DNA from: Marispirochaeta aestuarii
GTDB taxonomy: Bacteria > Spirochaetota > Spirochaetia > JC444 > Marispirochaetaceae
Length of the DNA stretch: 64,000 nt
Reading direction: 5' to 3'
Assembly: GCF_002087085.1 (NCBI RefSeq)
Contig: NZ_MWQY01000003.1
Span: 62,001 to 126,000, forward strand
Part shown: positions 4,366 to 37,294 of the stretch, piece by piece
Layout: each line of letters starts with the position of its first letter
Position numbering within the stretch: position 1 is the stretch's first letter
Notes under the pieces: model-generated
Databases searched by the model: none
What the model was told of the DNA's origin: nothing
What the model saw: the letters and a program-made list of their open reading frames with translations, nothing else
Translations under genes and position numbers: made by a program

Positions 4366-5249
4366 TCTCTCAAAGCACCGTTGACCATTCCATACACCCA
4401 GCGCCCTTCCTTCTTTTTGAGGAGTCCCAGGAATCGTCCATCACTGTCAAAACAGACCAGGGGTGTTGCGGCTTCAATTTCCGCAAGAAAACCGGCATCC
4501 TTCAGGGACCTTCCAAGAAGAAAACTCTCCACTTCGGCATCAGGGATACGTATCCCCGTTATTCCAAGGAGAGCTTCCATTGAATTCCGGTCGTCCAGTA
4601 CCGGTGTATCCTCATCTATCTCATCCACCCCGATGGCATCTTCAATCCGGGCCCTTCCAACCTGCAGACGCCTCAGACTTTTTACATACGCCACGGTTCC
4701 CAGGGAATATGCGATATCCCGTGCCAGAGAGCGGATGTAGGTTCCTTTGGAACAGGCCACCCGCACCGAAAGGAAAGGTGCTGTATAGCCTGTAATCTCC
4801 AGGGAGTCAATAAAAATGCGTCGGAAAGGCATATCCGGCACCTCTCCCTTCAAAGCACGCTTATATGCCCGGGTACCATCTATATGCACAGCCGAGTACA
4901 GAGGCGGCTTCTGCAGTATTTCGCCCCTGAATCCGACAAGTGCTGATTCCAGATCCTCCAGAACAGGGATTCCTCCCTCGGCACACACCGCCCCCTCGGG
5001 ATCGAGGGTTTCCGTTTCCCGGCCGAACTCGAAAACAGCCTCGTAAACCTTGTCCTGCTCGGTCAGATATGATGACAGCCGGGTAAAAGAGCCTGCAAGA
5101 CAGACCAGAAGCCCGGAGGCAAATTTGTCGAGGGTACCGGTATGACCCGCTTTTCCGGCTTTAAGTCTGCGACCGGCAAAGCGGACAGTATCGCTTGAAG
5201 TAAACCCTTCGTTTTTGTCTATCAGGATAATGCCGTTTTTCCCGCTCAT
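4362..5249 (-). CDS. truB: tRNA pseudouridine(55) synthase
   Basis: Makes pseudouridine 55 in the T-loop of most tRNAs. The 295 residues carry the TruB signature KAGHTGTLDKFASGLL near residue 35, with the catalytic Asp in TLDKFA, plus YSAVHIDGTRAYKRA and CSKGTYIRSLARDI, typical of the family. Its start overlaps the end of rbfA by 4 nt, suggesting translational coupling. Confidence 0.97.
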   Translation of the reverse strand: MSGKNGIILIDKNEGFTSSDTVRFAGRRLKAGKAGHTGTLDKFASGLLVCLAGSFTRLSSYLTEQDKVYEAVFEFGRETETLDPEGAVCAEGGIPVLEDLESALVGFRGEILQKPPLYSAVHIDGTRAYKRALKGEVPDMPFRRIFIDSLEITGYTAPFLSVRVACSKGTYIRSLARDIAYSLGTVAYVKSLRRLQVGRARIEDAIGVDEIDEDTPVLDDRNSMEALLGITGIRIPDAEVESFLLGRSLKDAGFLAEIEAATPLVCFDSDGRFLGLLKKKEGRWVYGMVNGALRD

Positions 5250-28268: not shown

Positions 28269-28724
28269 ATGGAAGGCAAAAAGATCCTGGCGGACAACAG
28301 AAAGGCCCGCTTCAACTACATGGTCCTCGATTCTCTCGAATGCGGTATAGCCCTGCAGGGTACCGAGGTAAAATCCATGCGGGCCGGAAAATTCTCTTTT
28401 ACAGACGCCTACGCCCGCATACGCAACGGTGAACTGTGGCTGGTTGGATTTCATATCACCCCCTATGAGTTCGGGAATATTTTCAACCATGAACCGGTAC
28501 GGGAACGCCGGCTTCTGGCGCACAAAGACGAAATCAAGCGTCTGCAGCGCAAGGTTGACGAGAAAGGTCTGACTCTGGTACCCCTGAAGTTCTATCTGAA
28601 GGGGGGTATTGTAAAACTTGAACTGGGAGTCTGCCAGGGAAAGAAACTCCATGACAAGCGGCAGTCCATCAAGGAACGGGATGACAAGCGCGCCGCGGAC
28701 AGGGAGTTCAAGCAGCGGCTGTAA
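28269..28724 (+). CDS. smpB: SsrA-binding protein SmpB
   Basis: Binds the tRNA-like end of tmRNA and brings it to stalled ribosomes. The 151 residues begin KKILADNRKARFNY, contain GIALQGTEVKSMRAGKFSF and HITPYEFGNIFNHEP, and end in the basic tail needed for function (DKRQSIKERDDKRAADREFK). It lies 71 nt upstream of its partner RNA gene, ssrA, on the same strand. Confidence 0.97.
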   Translation: MEGKKILADNRKARFNYMVLDSLECGIALQGTEVKSMRAGKFSFTDAYARIRNGELWLVGFHITPYEFGNIFNHEPVRERRLLAHKDEIKRLQRKVDEKGLTLVPLKFYLKGGIVKLELGVCQGKKLHDKRQSIKERDDKRAADREFKQRL

Positions 28725-28795: not shown

Positions 28796-29149
28796 GGGGG
28801 TGTCAAGGTTTCGACTGCGAGATGCAGAGTCATGGGTTGCAGGTGGAGCGGTTAACTCCTTAAACTGCCACAAACAATAACTGCTGACAATTACGAAGCA
28901 GACTACGCAATCGCGGCTTAATTAAGCCTCGTCGGGTACCCGGGATGCCGCCTTGAAGCCCGGTGTGCTTGTAATAAACCAGGGCTTACCTGAGCAGAGG
29001 CCTGTGCTGCCCGGGGACATTCAAGCAGGCTCTGGAATCGGGAAGGGCTGCCGGCTCTCCTCACCCGGTCCGAGATTAAAGAGACGGCTAAACCTGTAGA
29101 GATCTATGGCATGCCTTGTAGGACGCGGGTTCGACTCCCGCCACCTCCA
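28796..29149 (+). ncRNA. ssrA: Transfer-messenger RNA (tmRNA)
   Basis: Rescues stalled ribosomes. The 5' end GGGGGTG pairs with CACCTCC at 29142-29148 (one G-U), forming the 7-bp acceptor stem. The conserved TCAAGGTTTCGAC-type D-arm region follows the 5' strand, and the T-arm GCGGG-TTCGACT-CCCGC lies at 29125-29141. The tag frame is 28883-28918 and reads ADNYEADYAIAA, then TAA. The discriminator A (29149) is followed by TTA, so CCA is not encoded. The prophage begins directly after it. Confidence 0.95.
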
Positions 29150-29160: not shown

Positions 29161-29189
29161 TTGACGTATTAACAACTTAGGGTTATACT
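29161..29189 (+). promoter_or_regulatory. Strong sigma70-type promoter at the prophage left end
   Basis: TTGACG (29161-29166), exactly 17-nt spacer, TATACT (29184-29189): one mismatch from consensus in each box. It starts 12 nt after tmRNA and would drive the lipoprotein, YopX-like and integrase genes. Confidence 0.7.
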
Positions 29190-29198
29190 TATCTTGTA

Positions 29199-29234
29199 CG
29201 TATCAGTTATGCTATCATTATATGCACTGATACG
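29199..29234 (+). repeat. 9-bp inverted repeat in the lipoprotein leader
   Basis: CGTATCAGT (29199-29207) and ACTGATACG (29226-29234) are perfect inverted copies 18 nt apart, starting at about +3 of the predicted transcript and ending just before the AGGAGG ribosome binding site. It could be an operator, an RNA hairpin hiding the ribosome binding site, or an integrase arm site. Confidence 0.55.
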
Positions 29235-29250
29235 CGCAGGAGGGTATATC

Positions 29251-30423
29251 ATGAAAAACAAAATGTTGCTTACTTTGCTGATCTTAGTACTTTTTGTCGC
29301 TTGCTCCGGCGGTGGTGCCGGTAGCGAAAGGGCCCCGCTTGTGAGCGTAAACCTTGCCGGGGCTGACGGGTATCTCCGGGTCTGGAATAGTCCCGCTGTC
29401 CTGAACGCCGTGAAAGACGCGGAAGTCAAAGAGGTGGTCTGGACTGACGAGAAAGGTGTCGAGGTCAGTGTCCCGGTCACTGAGTCAAAGCTGCTGTCTA
29501 CCGATTACATGGTCTTACAGTACAGCTATGATGATTCCACCACGTCAGCGGTAGCTGACATTGTAACAGGTGAGCTGGTTGAAATCCCGGCCCCTGGTAA
29601 CTGGTCGGAGATTAAATACCGTAATAACCGCATGTACTACGTCAGCGGAGGGGCGGTCCTGAACGTTGACCCGGCTACAGGGGAATCGTTCAAACTGAAT
29701 GACAGCGATACCGTACCCGCCGGATACATGGTTCTAAGCGAGACGGAAACGCCCTTTATCCTGACCGGCAGCTTTAAGCGGTCATACCCCGGCGGCGTCT
29801 CACGTGAGCTTTCCGGCAGTCCTGCGGCCCTGCGACTGTATGAAGGTCTTTCCGGTGCTGAATCCGGGGGCTTGAAATCTCACTCCCTGATCTATGACGA
29901 GACCGCCGATACCTATTATATGATCCATTGGGGTGGCAATGCGTATTGGGAACAGATCATCGCTGACAACGGAAGCGTCACCGAGGGGCCGTCAACCGCC
30001 CTTTCTCACCCCTTCGCAACCGGAGCCCGGCGGGTAGGCTACGGAACGCCGACCGCTGACAATTCAGTATTTGCCGATTATGAGCATGTTTACACCCTGT
30101 CGGTTTCCGGCGGATCAATCACACTAAATGAAGCATACACCGCGACAAACTCCGGCCTGTCGGTTACAGAATCAAAATACGTGGATGGCCTCTACTATTA
30201 CCAGTCAAACACAATCAATAATATGGTCTACCAGATCAGGGAATCAAATCTGGTTGACACCGACAGGGTGCTTGTCGAGGCCGGGATTTATGACCTCGAA
30301 GATTGGGACGTTGTGGCCGGGGAGCTCTTCTGGATTGACGATACGGGCTCATGGGTTATGGATTTAGCCACCGGGGATGTATCGGCGTATCAGGCGAGTG
30401 CAGTTGAGGCGGTGACGGAATGA
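29251..30423 (+). CDS. Prophage-encoded lipoprotein, beta-propeller-like
   Basis: Not recognised as a named family. The 390-residue precursor begins MKNKMLLTLLILVLFVACSG, a spirochaete-type lipoprotein signal with Cys at residue 18, followed by a Gly/Ser-rich tether. The mature part is beta-rich with repeated short strands (DGYLRVWN, MYYVSGGAVLNVDPATGE, ELFWIDDTGSWVMDLATGD), suggesting a beta-propeller. AGGAGG lies 7 nt before the ATG. It is the first gene of the plus-strand operon next to ssrA and is not a virion gene by position, so it may be expressed in the lysogen and alter the cell surface, for example to block superinfection (inference). Confidence 0.8.
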   Translation: MKNKMLLTLLILVLFVACSGGGAGSERAPLVSVNLAGADGYLRVWNSPAVLNAVKDAEVKEVVWTDEKGVEVSVPVTESKLLSTDYMVLQYSYDDSTTSAVADIVTGELVEIPAPGNWSEIKYRNNRMYYVSGGAVLNVDPATGESFKLNDSDTVPAGYMVLSETETPFILTGSFKRSYPGGVSRELSGSPAALRLYEGLSGAESGGLKSHSLIYDETADTYYMIHWGGNAYWEQIIADNGSVTEGPSTALSHPFATGARRVGYGTPTADNSVFADYEHVYTLSVSGGSITLNEAYTATNSGLSVTESKYVDGLYYYQSNTINNMVYQIRESNLVDTDRVLVEAGIYDLEDWDVVAGELFWIDDTGSWVMDLATGDVSAYQASAVEAVTE

Positions 30424-30755
30424 GAGAGATTAAGTTTCGGGCATGGACTGGTAAGAAGTTCGTATACGGCTCGCGTGATGATGAAGTGAATCCTTCATGG
30501 GTGCTGGCTATGTGCAATGCGAACGGCATTGAGCCAGAACAATTCACCGGTCTCAAGGACAAGAACGGCAAAGAGATTTATGAGGGTGATATTATAGAGC
30601 ATTATTCTGGTTTAGTTCCAAAAGGCGCTGATCCATACGTGAAGCAAATCGTAAGATGGAATCGATACCGTTGGGACGGCATAAACAATTTCAATGTATC
30701 AAAGATCATCGGCAACATCCACGAAAACCCGGAGCTATTGGAGAAGGCCGTCTAA
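30420..30755 (+). CDS. YopX-family phage protein
   Basis: The 111-residue protein has the YopX signature: start MREIKFRAWTGKKFVYG, then FTGLKDKNGKEIYEGDIIEH and the end KIIGNIHENPELLE. YopX proteins are common in temperate phages of many phyla; their function is not known. It overlaps the lipoprotein stop by 4 nt (ATGA) and ends right before the integrase start, so the three genes form one coupled operon. Confidence 0.88.
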   Translation: MREIKFRAWTGKKFVYGSRDDEVNPSWVLAMCNANGIEPEQFTGLKDKNGKEIYEGDIIEHYSGLVPKGADPYVKQIVRWNRYRWDGINNFNVSKIIGNIHENPELLEKAV

Positions 30756-31997
30756 ATGCCCCGATACCGCGATTCAGACTATACAATTTACCCGCGGAAA
30801 TTCAAAGACAAAACCGTATGGTACTACTACGCCTATGTCGACGGGGTGCGGCAACCTGGAAAATCAACCAGCATAGGCTACACGCGGGAACGTGATAGGG
30901 CGAAAACCAGAAAGCAGGCAGAGGGGAAAGTCCGGGAATTGCTGGAATACGGGAAAGGGCTTTCCGGGCCTACCCTGCGCCAGTGGGTCGAACAGCGCAA
31001 TTTCTGGGACTGGCACAGGTCGGATTATATCCGGGGAATACTGGCCCGGTCGCCGAAAGATAAACCGGGGATCACACAAAGTTATTGCCGTGATGCTCAG
31101 CGGGTGACGGAAAGCAAAATCCTGCCCTACCACGGCGATAAACAGATTGACAGAATCACCGCGATGGACTGCGAGGATTTGCTTTTCGAGTGGCAGGCAA
31201 CCGGGCGGGCGAATAAGACGGTAAATAACTGGAAATCGGTCTATTCAACAATCCTGGGTGAATACGAAAGGGTCCAGTTAATGAAGGACGCGCGCTCCCT
31301 GTACCGCAACCCGTGGCGGCAGGTTCGCCCGTTGGCCGTGGAAAAAAATAAGCGTGGGGGGCTCTCGCTCGATGAGGCCCGCCGGCTACTTGAGGTACCT
31401 GTTGACGATAAGTACAGCGCGGTATATTACCCCGCCATGAAGCTTGCTTTTATGACGGGGCTCCGTATTTCCGAGGTCTGCGGCATTGTCTCCGGGGACG
31501 TTAAGGATGTCGAGGTCAAACGTGGGGATCGGGTGCTTACGATGAGTTACCTGGAAATTGACCAGCAGTACAACCAAAAAATGAAGCGCCGTACACTGGT
31601 AAAAGACAAAGAGGTCCGGCAGATACCTATCACCCCGGGGATGCGCAAAGAGTTGCAGCCGTTCATGGGGAAAAAAGATCAGTACCTTTTCAGCTTCCAT
31701 CCGCGCCGGGAAATTCCGATTACTGCTAACCGTCTGCGGGACTGGTTTTATAAGCGCCTTGAATCGGTCGGGATAGGCGAGGAAGAACGAAAGAAGCGGA
31801 ATATCGTTTTCCATTCTACCCGCCGGTTCTTTAATACGCTTTTACGCCGTGCCCATGTTGACGATACAATCATCAGGCGGTTTACCGGTCACGATTCAGA
31901 GGCAATGACAGAGCACTATACGGATTACATTGTCCAGGATTTGCCGCTCATTGAACAAGCCCAGCGGAAATTCTTGGAAGGAAAAATCAAGGAGTGA
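30756..31997 (+). CDS. int: Tyrosine-type site-specific integrase
   Basis: Catalyses integration and excision at the ssrA site. The 413 residues comprise an N-terminal arm-binding part (IYPRKFKDKTVWYYYAYVDG), a SAM-like core-binding domain (about 110-200) and a catalytic domain with R237 (TGLRISEVCG), H353 and R356 (HSTRRF), H379 (TGHDSE) and the nucleophile Y388 (HYTDY). Intact. It is transcribed away from ssrA in an operon with the lipoprotein gene and converges with the long minus-strand phage block. Confidence 0.95.
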   Translation: MPRYRDSDYTIYPRKFKDKTVWYYYAYVDGVRQPGKSTSIGYTRERDRAKTRKQAEGKVRELLEYGKGLSGPTLRQWVEQRNFWDWHRSDYIRGILARSPKDKPGITQSYCRDAQRVTESKILPYHGDKQIDRITAMDCEDLLFEWQATGRANKTVNNWKSVYSTILGEYERVQLMKDARSLYRNPWRQVRPLAVEKNKRGGLSLDEARRLLEVPVDDKYSAVYYPAMKLAFMTGLRISEVCGIVSGDVKDVEVKRGDRVLTMSYLEIDQQYNQKMKRRTLVKDKEVRQIPITPGMRKELQPFMGKKDQYLFSFHPRREIPITANRLRDWFYKRLESVGIGEEERKKRNIVFHSTRRFFNTLLRRAHVDDTIIRRFTGHDSEAMTEHYTDYIVQDLPLIEQAQRKFLEGKIKE

Positions 31998-32072: not shown

Positions 32073-32096
32073 AAAAAAAGCCGGGACAAGCCCGGC
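32073..32096 (-). terminator. Terminator of the long minus-strand phage transcript
   Basis: GCCGGG and CCCGGC form a 6-bp all-GC stem with a 5-nt loop, followed on the minus strand by seven T. It lies 30 nt beyond the last minus-strand phage gene. Confidence 0.85.
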
Positions 32097-34442: not shown

Positions 34443-36821
34443 TTAATTCAAGTTGCGGCCCCGTACGGATGCCGTTATTCCTGTTCGCAAAACAGAGCAA
34501 GCAATACCGGTGCCCTGCCGCGTAAACTCAATTGTGATTTCCCCTATCGGGATATTTGCCCCGTCGCGGAGTGTACCGGTTAATGTTGCGACGCCTGCCG
34601 CCTGCCCTGATAAAGCGCCGACACCGGAAAGCGTACCGGTGATGGTAACCGTACCGGCTGACAGGCCAGATAATGCGCCTTTTGCTTGTAAAGTCCCGGT
34701 GACGACCGAAGAACCGGCCGCAACTCCTTGTAGGTTTCCGGTCGGTGCCGCGTTGTGGAGAGTACCGGAGGCAATACACGACCCCTCGGATAACCCGTTC
34801 AGTGATCCGACGCCGAAAAGGAGCGCTGTAATATCGCACGTACCGGCCGCAGAACCGGAGAGAGATCCAGTACCAGAGAGAATTGCCGAGACGGTCGCAA
34901 GCCCGTAAGCTGATCCAGACAAACTACCAGTGCCGGTCAGGACGCCGGAAAGAACGGATGCCCCTTCGGAGGCCCCGGACAATGCACCTGTGCCGGTAAG
35001 AGTACCCGATGCCGTGGACGTGCCCTCCGATGTGCCAGAGATTGCGCCTGATCCTCCGCCCTCGGTGCGATAGATAAAATCAACGTATGTTGTGTAGGTA
35101 GAATCCCCGTCGTCCTCAGTGTAAAGCACCGGAAAATAGTCAGCGTTGGATGGGAGGACCGGAGCTACATTCGGGTGTCCGCTGGGTGCAGAGTCATTGA
35201 CAATTACCTCAGCGCTCCATCCAGCATCATACGATCTGCGGCATATATCGCCGTCACTGTTGACATATAGACAGTAGACAACCCCGTCATCCTGGTAGCC
35301 GATTGCGGGTTCAGAATTAAACGTACCGGGAGTTGCGAGCGTAACCGGACTACTCCACGAGTTCCCCCATGTTTTATGAGCATGCCGGATAACGTACGTT
35401 CCATCGACCTGATCTGCCCAGACTACATGTATAGTGCCGTCACTATCGATAGTAGCTCCGAACTGCCGGGTGAGAGCGTCACTTGACGCAGTTGTAATGT
35501 AATCAGTGTCAGCGTCAAAACTGTCTACGCCGTCCCAACGATACAGATAAAATCTACATCCGCCCGTCCTCTGCTCATAGACAACAAGCGCGGGCCTGCC
35601 GTCTGCAACGACCATCCCCACGCGATGCTCAGTATCAAACGTGTCTCCGGTGTTATAGGTAGCTGTAAACGTCTCACCGTTATCGCCGGAATAGTGCACA
35701 TAGATAAGGTCTGCTCCGGACTGCGAAACAACCCGATCTGATATCCATAGATTTGTACCGTCTGCGACCATGCCTCCGCACGACCCAGTATTACCTGCCC
35801 CCCATGGATTAAGAGCGGCGTCGTCGGCACTGACATGGTGCGCTCCGAGGTAGACTGAGGCAAAAAACTTGCGGTATGTAATTCCACCGGCACCGTTACG
35901 ATCAGCTGTATGCAAATATCCGGCAGAATCAATCCATACTGTAGTATGATAGTTAAAATCAAAATCGCCGACCGGGTGCCATGTCGCGCCCCAGTCGTTG
36001 GAGAAAAAAATGTCGTTGCCGGTCGCCTGCACCACTGCCCAGATATTCCAGGGGTACGTCTGATGAGGGATTATTTTGTATCGTGGAAGGGCCAGCGTCG
36101 CATCGTCTGTTACATCAGTCGCAAGAGGTACGCGTCCTGTCGGTGTTGCCGGCTCTGTTGTTTTAAGGGCATCGTCAGGAGTTCCACTTGTCGGGTTATC
36201 TCCGCTGTTGAGCGTATATGTGCCACTGAGCGTGATCCCGCCCTCGTCATCGATAATGTCGCCTGCGAATGGACAGTGTACGATCAGATCAGTAGTCGAG
36301 ATATTCTGAGGATCAACACCGGCAAGGTATGCATCCGCCTCAGCTGGAGTTAAAACTCTGTCCCAGATAGCAAGCTGTGCAAGCGATCCGTCAAAATATG
36401 ATCCGGGAGAAGAGTCGTTAAAACGCCCAAGAGCTAATTGATTAACGTTATCAGGCGTTAGTCCGTTGCTACCAGAGACAACTTCAATTTCACCGTCTGT
36501 CCCCATTAAACGGAGTGTCGTGTCATCGGCCTCGAAAATTATGACTACCCTGCGCCATACGCCGGTAGCTATTGTGCCGGTACTACGGACATTATTTATC
36601 ACACTATCACGGGCGCCAGCTTCGATTACATTGCCCTCACCGTGATTAAAGTAGATGTACCCCAACCAGTCTGCTGATTGACTCGTATTTGCGATGCAAA
36701 ATAGTGTCCCGTCTGATAGACTGTCAAGTTTAAATGACAGTGCGACGGTAAAAGGGTAACCAGTTACCGGAGTTGAGCTATCTATGTATTGTGAGCTGCC
36801 AGCGTCAAACTGTATACCCAT
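34443..36821 (-). CDS. Large tail fibre/spike: LamG + Asp-box propeller + Gly/Ser repeats
   Basis: 792 residues from the ATG at 36821 (GAGG upstream); a longer frame to 37022 has an arginine-rich non-family extension and no support. N-terminus: concanavalin/LamG-like domain (FDAGSSQYIDSS to LTPAEADAYLAG, about 1-175). Middle: beta-propeller with two Asp boxes (SNDWGATW and SGDNGETF), as in sialidases and tailspikes. C-terminus: seven and a half degenerate 20-residue repeats. This suggests a receptor-binding protein that binds or cuts a surface glycan (inference). Confidence 0.8.
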   Translation of the reverse strand: MGIQFDAGSSQYIDSSTPVTGYPFTVALSFKLDSLSDGTLFCIANTSQSADWLGYIYFNHGEGNVIEAGARDSVINNVRSTGTIATGVWRRVVIIFEADDTTLRLMGTDGEIEVVSGSNGLTPDNVNQLALGRFNDSSPGSYFDGSLAQLAIWDRVLTPAEADAYLAGVDPQNISTTDLIVHCPFAGDIIDDEGGITLSGTYTLNSGDNPTSGTPDDALKTTEPATPTGRVPLATDVTDDATLALPRYKIIPHQTYPWNIWAVVQATGNDIFFSNDWGATWHPVGDFDFNYHTTVWIDSAGYLHTADRNGAGGITYRKFFASVYLGAHHVSADDAALNPWGAGNTGSCGGMVADGTNLWISDRVVSQSGADLIYVHYSGDNGETFTATYNTGDTFDTEHRVGMVVADGRPALVVYEQRTGGCRFYLYRWDGVDSFDADTDYITTASSDALTRQFGATIDSDGTIHVVWADQVDGTYVIRHAHKTWGNSWSSPVTLATPGTFNSEPAIGYQDDGVVYCLYVNSDGDICRRSYDAGWSAEVIVNDSAPSGHPNVAPVLPSNADYFPVLYTEDDGDSTYTTYVDFIYRTEGGGSGAISGTSEGTSTASGTLTGTGALSGASEGASVLSGVLTGTGSLSGSAYGLATVSAILSGTGSLSGSAAGTCDITALLFGVGSLNGLSEGSCIASGTLHNAAPTGNLQGVAAGSSVVTGTLQAKGALSGLSAGTVTITGTLSGVGALSGQAAGVATLTGTLRDGANIPIGEITIEFTRQGTGIACSVLRTGITASVRGRNLN
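34564..35024 (-). repeat. Tandem 60-bp coding repeats in the large fibre gene
   Basis: About 7.5 in-frame copies of a 20-residue unit with consensus GxxxxxGTLxGxGALSGxxx. Copies differ at many positions, so the repeat is old rather than newly expanded; one copy has a 3-residue insertion. Confidence 0.8.
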
Positions 36822-36844
36822 AAGTTCCTCAGGTTCCTCCTGCC

Positions 36845-37294
36845 CTACATCCCCGAATCCCGCAAGCCCTGTATTTTCTTTAAGTCCGTCTCCTCTTGCC
36901 ACGGGAAATACCCGAAAGGGCCGTCTTGAGTGACGGGTACCTCCTCGGTAGAATATGCGAGCGATGAATAGGTTACATTCCCGCCGCCATCGGTGTGTTT
37001 GTATCTCAGGGCGACATACCAAGGGACTCTCGGATAGAGTGCAATCTGCATTTGTGTTGCTGTGGTTATGCCGAAGAAAGTCAGGTTTTCAATCGGCTGA
37101 ACTTCAATGTCGCTTCCGGGATATCCGTAGACTTCATATTCAATCATATCCCCCGGGAGGAATGGATTTCCGTCTGCGTCCTCAATTATCGCGTTCCATT
37201 CCAATGTCGGATGTGAATTGTAAAATACCTGCTCCTGCGAAAAAGCGAAAAATAAAAGAAGCGTAAAAATCAAAACGAATAAAATCTTTTTCAT
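36845..37294 (-). CDS. Secreted phage protein of unknown function
   Basis: The 149-residue precursor begins MKKILFVLIFTLLLFFAFSQ, a signal peptide cleaved near residue 20. The mature part has fibronectin-like beta pattern (PTLEWNAIIEDADGNPF, YEVYGYPGSDIEVQPIENL, YVALRYKHTDGGGNVTY). Not recognised. It lies in the lysis/envelope cluster, overlapping the holin-like gene by 4 nt. Confidence 0.75.
   Translation of the reverse strand: MKKILFVLIFTLLLFFAFSQEQVFYNSHPTLEWNAIIEDADGNPFLPGDMIEYEVYGYPGSDIEVQPIENLTFFGITTATQMQIALYPRVPWYVALRYKHTDGGGNVTYSSLAYSTEEVPVTQDGPFGYFPWQEETDLKKIQGLRDSGM

Follow-up and report, generated by a model that had tools for sequence, protein, structure and literature searches.

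The region studied here belongs to a 64,000-nt stretch of the Marispirochaeta aestuarii genome (referred to as the window), in which the host genes smpB and ssrA are followed on the same strand by genes for a lipoprotein, a YopX-family protein and a tyrosine integrase (Table 1). The three frames behind ssrA were intact and tightly packed; the lipoprotein and YopX genes overlap by 4 nt (ATGA) and the integrase gene starts directly after the YopX stop codon with zero gap, which is the layout that the first-pass annotation of this DNA had described. The YopX protein scored 52.8 bits against its Pfam family, well within PF09643 at a curated cut-off of 22.4. The GC content of the lipoprotein gene (0.538) resembles that of the host and of int, and that of the YopX gene was 0.449.

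Table 1. Features at the ssrA end of the prophage (positions are those of the window)
Feature	Position	Strand	Basis or remark
smpB (SsrA-binding protein), host gene 5′ of ssrA	28269..28724	+	ORF list; sequence plus smpB-ssrA order
ssrA (tmRNA), integration target, intact	28796..29149	+	ARAGORN; Rfam RF00023
attL core, 22-bp ssrA 3′ end	29128..29149	+	repeat at attR; same-genus empty sites
Promoter-like site TTGACG-17-TATACT	29161..29189	+	place fits int promoter-like site of G371
Inverted repeat with 12-nt-spaced TATCA (29201-29205, 29213-29217), proposed integrase arm-type (P′) sites	29199..29234	+	putative binding
Shine-Dalgarno AGGAGG of the lipoprotein gene	29238..29243	+	sequence
Lipoprotein, 390 aa, signal peptide MKNKMLLTLLILVLFVAC, cargo	29251..30423	+	no relatives found; lipobox by eye
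YopX-family protein, 111 aa, cargo	30420..30755	+	PF09643 5e-14; phrog_98 3.9e-28
Tyrosine integrase, 413 aa, ssrA-type family	30756..31997	+	PF00589; alignments; model; fold matches
Intrinsic terminator-like site, end of leftward phage operon, convergent with int	32080..32096	-	

A temperate, contractile-tailed phage sits in the 3′ end of ssrA, and the region described here forms its attL side. A second copy of the 22-bp ssrA end was found 41.7 kb away, outside the window (G000:C3:132802-132823), and represents attR; what had been called a prophage edge thus proved to be attL. The prophage enclosed by the two copies is 41,674 bp long, and genes for terminase, portal, protease, tail sheath, tape measure and baseplate were located within its borders. 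In two genomes of the same genus (G397 and G419) the ssrA site was empty, and an ordinary empty site also resulted when both prophage flanks were joined, so that both features expected of an ssrA-integrated prophage were observed, borders that directly repeat the 3′ end of ssrA and an unoccupied site in relatives. The ssrA gene itself was recognized as intact by ARAGORN despite the insertion. A terminator lies directly 3′ of ssrA in both G397 and G419, and here a hairpin with a T run (-18.7 kcal/mol, z -3) was found directly behind attR; integration has therefore displaced the terminator of ssrA beyond attR. A third att-like match in the same genome (C3:134262) is located within a host gene, so it was not accepted as a border. 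In G419 a second copy of the terminator and of the last part of the att core lies about 170 nt 3′ of ssrA (L083:1320-1500), which is likely the trace of an earlier element. Beside the tail genes of the present prophage, an 859-aa frame (window 34443-37022) was noticed whose C-terminus carries Gly/Ser/Thr-rich repeats; it gave no PHROG match and is possibly a tail fibre.

The catalytic domain of the integrase was recognized by PF00589 (5.5e-16), and R237, H353, R356, H379 and Y388 were invariant in the alignments, which are the R, H-x-x-R, H and Y catalytic residues of tyrosine integrases of the lambda/Tn916 type. Profile matches were obtained with Tn1549 and lambda Int. In such integrases an N-terminal domain of three strands plus a helix is expected for arm binding, and the predicted structure showed these elements within residues 9-64 (pLDDT mostly >80); when the whole model was used as query, lambda Int aligned to it from residue 9.

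The promoter that had been reported near the end of the tmRNA was confirmed as a promoter-like site in the 101-nt stretch between ssrA and the lipoprotein gene. Its hexamers TTGACG (29161-29166) and TATACT (29184-29189) are separated by a 17-nt spacer, begin 11 nt beyond the tmRNA end and match the consensus at 10 of 12 positions; the site was the best in 4 kb, and equal scores were reached in 2.2% of shuffled leaders. The perfect 9-bp inverted repeat reported just before AGGAGG was likewise recovered (CGTATCAGT, 29199-29207, and ACTGATACG, 29226-29234, with a loop of 18 nt). It begins about 2-3 nt past the point where the transcript should start, 3 nt separate its end from AGGAGG, and 2.7% of dinucleotide shuffles of the leader contained its equal. 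Each of these two elements, taken alone, is only moderately unusual; they are credible because both recur at the same place in relatives.

Integrase relatives at ssrA were found in the spirochaete genomes G371, G411 and G130 (50-58% identity) and, more distantly related, in G245. In three phage contigs (L009, L058 and L060) an ssrA-end (attP) block precedes int; only the L009 contig came up again in a contig scan with the integrase. The attR partners were located in G371 (39.0 kb), G130 (29.7 kb) and G245 (38.4 kb), and an att-core match in G411 (C94) was ruled out as attR by its location among host genes. At nearly all located loci int begins about 100 nt past the core and is preceded by a comparable leader. 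Such leaders often contain a promoter-like site and repeats with a 12-nt period, which in some cases occur again near attR, and the ssrA-to-lipoprotein stretch has the length and layout of these leaders. The leader of G371 carries TTGATA-17-TATGAT at nearly the same offset as here, together with an inverted repeat of 8 bp (loop 18); that of G245 has an inverted repeat of 10 bp (loop 16). Direct repeats 12 nt apart were found in the leaders of G371 (TGTAAGCAGATATGTAAGCAGA), G130 (TGTGACCTATACTGTGACCT) and L009 (ATGGCTAGCAGAATGGCTAGCAGAA), and the pattern was not clearly present in those of L058 and L060. When eight leaders were summed, the best period was 12, with a score of 56, and none of 500 shuffles scored above 52. 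The repeat with this spacing in the present prophage comprises only 5 nt (TATCA), and the sequence of the arm sites varies between phages.

Putative arm-type repeats flank the core on both sides clearly in G371 and more weakly in this prophage. In G371, AAGCAGATATG is common to both att arms, and the right arm contains it twice in tandem. When the rest of the 41.7 kb of the present prophage was compared with the repeat arm, AGTATCAGATATG near attR matched best (2 mismatches in 13, P ~0.03), and the GTATCAGATATG site before attR is the candidate right-arm site. Similar tests for a right-arm motif were negative or not clear in L009, L058 and L060, and only one of three half-sites was matched in G130. 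Three head-to-tail ATGTCCCCTT-like copies with a 10-nt period were also seen 20-50 bp before the attR core (L005:8752-8785) and are possible excisionase or further integrase sites. Near attR of the G371 prophage (L077:1135-3136), a gene for a non-specific endonuclease and, judged by eye, one for a mutator-type transposase were present, so this element may be decaying or rearranged.

Since a similar leader precedes int in relatives, the promoter and the inverted repeat are best read as an int promoter over integrase arm-type sites. We give a probability of about 0.6 to the overall reading that, on this attL side of an ssrA phage, the leader is the P′ arm with the int promoter over arm-type sites, the int transcript carries the lipoprotein and YopX genes as cargo that is expressed partly by read-through from ssrA, and the lipoprotein alters the envelope. 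The P′ arm would correspond to the roughly 100 nt after the core, with the promoter beside and over the sites; the inverted repeat at 29199-29234 would be composed of such sites, to which the N-terminal domain of the integrase is predicted to bind. An integrase bound there, over its own promoter, is proposed to recombine and also to lower that promoter. Arm-type sites are the best reading of the leader from the combined evidence, to which this prophage alone lends moderate support.

The gap between att and int did not exceed 181 nt at 21 of the 23 loci where the att site could be placed. Genes were present in this slot in only two loci with different contents, namely the present prophage (1606 nt) and L058, where about 660 nt accommodate a DUF551 protein and a frame of 53 aa, and the lipoprotein and YopX genes have therefore been added to a standard module. 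They would have been inserted between the leader and int, a position from which they would share the int transcript. No terminator was found between ssrA and the lipoprotein gene, and the stretch holds no run of four T, so read-through from ssrA may express the lipoprotein; tmRNA 3′ processing could limit it.

The lipobox of the lipoprotein appeared spirochaete-like by eye, and the protein is probably exported and anchored; most likely it alters the envelope of the lysogen. Searches of 393 genomes of the phylum, 4 of the order, phage records and viral contigs returned no relatives apart from this very prophage among the contigs, and no match was obtained in Pfam, PHROGs or PADLOC. Three "TG-E/D" stretches seen by eye suggest a beta-propeller, and the single-sequence model (pLDDT 36.7) was useless for fold. 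Because it has neither a relative nor a useful model, the function of this protein is a guess, and the leading guess, offered tentatively and at less than even odds, is that it excludes related phages. The two cargo genes could instead be recent passengers without function in the lysogen. The absence of lipoprotein relatives fits that explanation, as do the DUF551 content of the slot in L058 and its emptiness in most relatives, but both frames are intact and closely packed with int, and the signal peptide and ribosome site are also intact, which makes it rather unlikely.

The inverted repeat might also be the operator of a CI-like phage repressor or another regulator and not an integrase site. 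Its perfect 9-bp arms lie where transcription is expected to begin, a place at which a bound repressor would prevent it; however, its only close match elsewhere in the prophage adjoins attR and not the repressor or early-gene region, and the same kind of repeat occurs in both att arms of G371. We therefore regard an operator as unlikely and an integrase site as the better reading of this repeat. The first-pass annotation had suggested that the module could be a surface-conversion system, and its prophage edge, operon-like layout and cargo genes were upheld. In a dedicated system of this type, the promoter and an inverted-repeat operator would serve the lipoprotein, with int carried along; a shared transcript layout, a good Shine-Dalgarno sequence and a second lipoprotein gene behind a CI-like repressor near attR speak for it. 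On the other side, relatives at ssrA that lack the lipoprotein have a promoter-like site and repeats in a similar leader before int, and the lipoprotein-YopX-integrase trio, looked for in other spirochaete prophages, was found only in this one and is no recurrent module; at six other YopX loci of the class, which are short, no integrase of the same family was seen beside YopX. A dedicated system of this kind is thus very unlikely. A hairpin in the 5′ leader RNA that tunes translation or stability is the least probable explanation. A structure of -14 kcal/mol predicted at the transcript 5′ end speaks for it, but this is no more stable than shuffles (z -0.96) and leaves the ribosome site outside the stem, and the hairpin was dropped as the main reading.

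The second lipoprotein gene (L005:7316-8002, on G000:C3 outside the window; 228 aa, GC 0.342) lies on the + strand directly after the CI-like repressor gene and is followed by a terminator-like hairpin. No credible relatives were found in 395 genomes of the class; a weak PADLOC match to type I specificity subunits was taken as chance, and neither lipoprotein gave a credible match among solved structures. It is a good candidate for a lysogen-expressed conversion gene, and once the phage is circular, attP would have one of the two lipoprotein genes on either side. Genes for a lipoprotein-like and a membrane protein also adjoin attR in the G130 prophage at ssrA (L078:3282-4379 and 4481-5224).

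On present evidence, the feature is real and combines known parts in a variant layout; it does not amount to a new surface-conversion system. Most of the arrangement is ordinary, and only the placement of cargo in front of the integrase gene is unusual. A natural misreading is corrected here, since a good promoter with an inverted repeat at the edge of a prophage can belong to the machinery of the integration site itself. If expression is confirmed, the prophage would have a simple way to couple the expression of cargo to integration at ssrA, and the lipoprotein would be a candidate exclusion protein in a spirochaete prophage outside Borrelia. It is conceivable, if quite doubtful, that cargo can be placed repeatedly in the slot between leader and int, with the integrase repressing when the phage is excised and ssrA read-through driving expression when it is integrated, so that integration switches on a phage-excluding envelope lipoprotein.

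The individual parts have counterparts in known systems. The attP of ICEMlSymR7A contains several arm-type motifs, and its PintS promoter lies within attP and is autoregulated by IntS (PMC11963761); motif and element differ from those described here, where binding is predicted from the sequence. In Streptococcus pyogenes, a prophage integrated behind ssrA interferes with the termination of ssrA transcripts and links its own cargo to transcription of that gene (PMC9951164); one terminator is left before its cargo, whereas none was found here, where read-through is likewise proposed. The ssrA-specific integrated elements of Dehalococcoides (PMC2764846) share with our region an integrase gene adjoining ssrA and a direct repeat of about 20 bp of ssrA at the far end, but here the element is a contractile-tailed prophage in which two cargo genes separate int from ssrA. 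Surface lipoproteins borne by prophages are already known (PMC3952083, PMC3303823). The cp32 prophages of Borrelia carry the lipoprotein conversion genes mlp and rev (PMC3303823) and are, like the present one, spirochaete prophages with lipoprotein genes; they are circular plasmid prophages and are not at ssrA. Ltp of Streptococcus thermophilus phage TP-J34 is a superinfection-exclusion lipoprotein made by the prophage and encoded beside int (PMC3952083). As here, judging by gene order and signal peptide, its gene lies in the lysogeny module, adjoining int and in the same direction. Ltp has 142 aa compared with 390 aa here, and the att site here falls between the repressor region and the lipoprotein gene; the likeness is one of gene layout, and no sequence relation was found through phage-record and solved-structure searches. 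Surface conversion or phage exclusion is a plausible candidate role of the lipoprotein.
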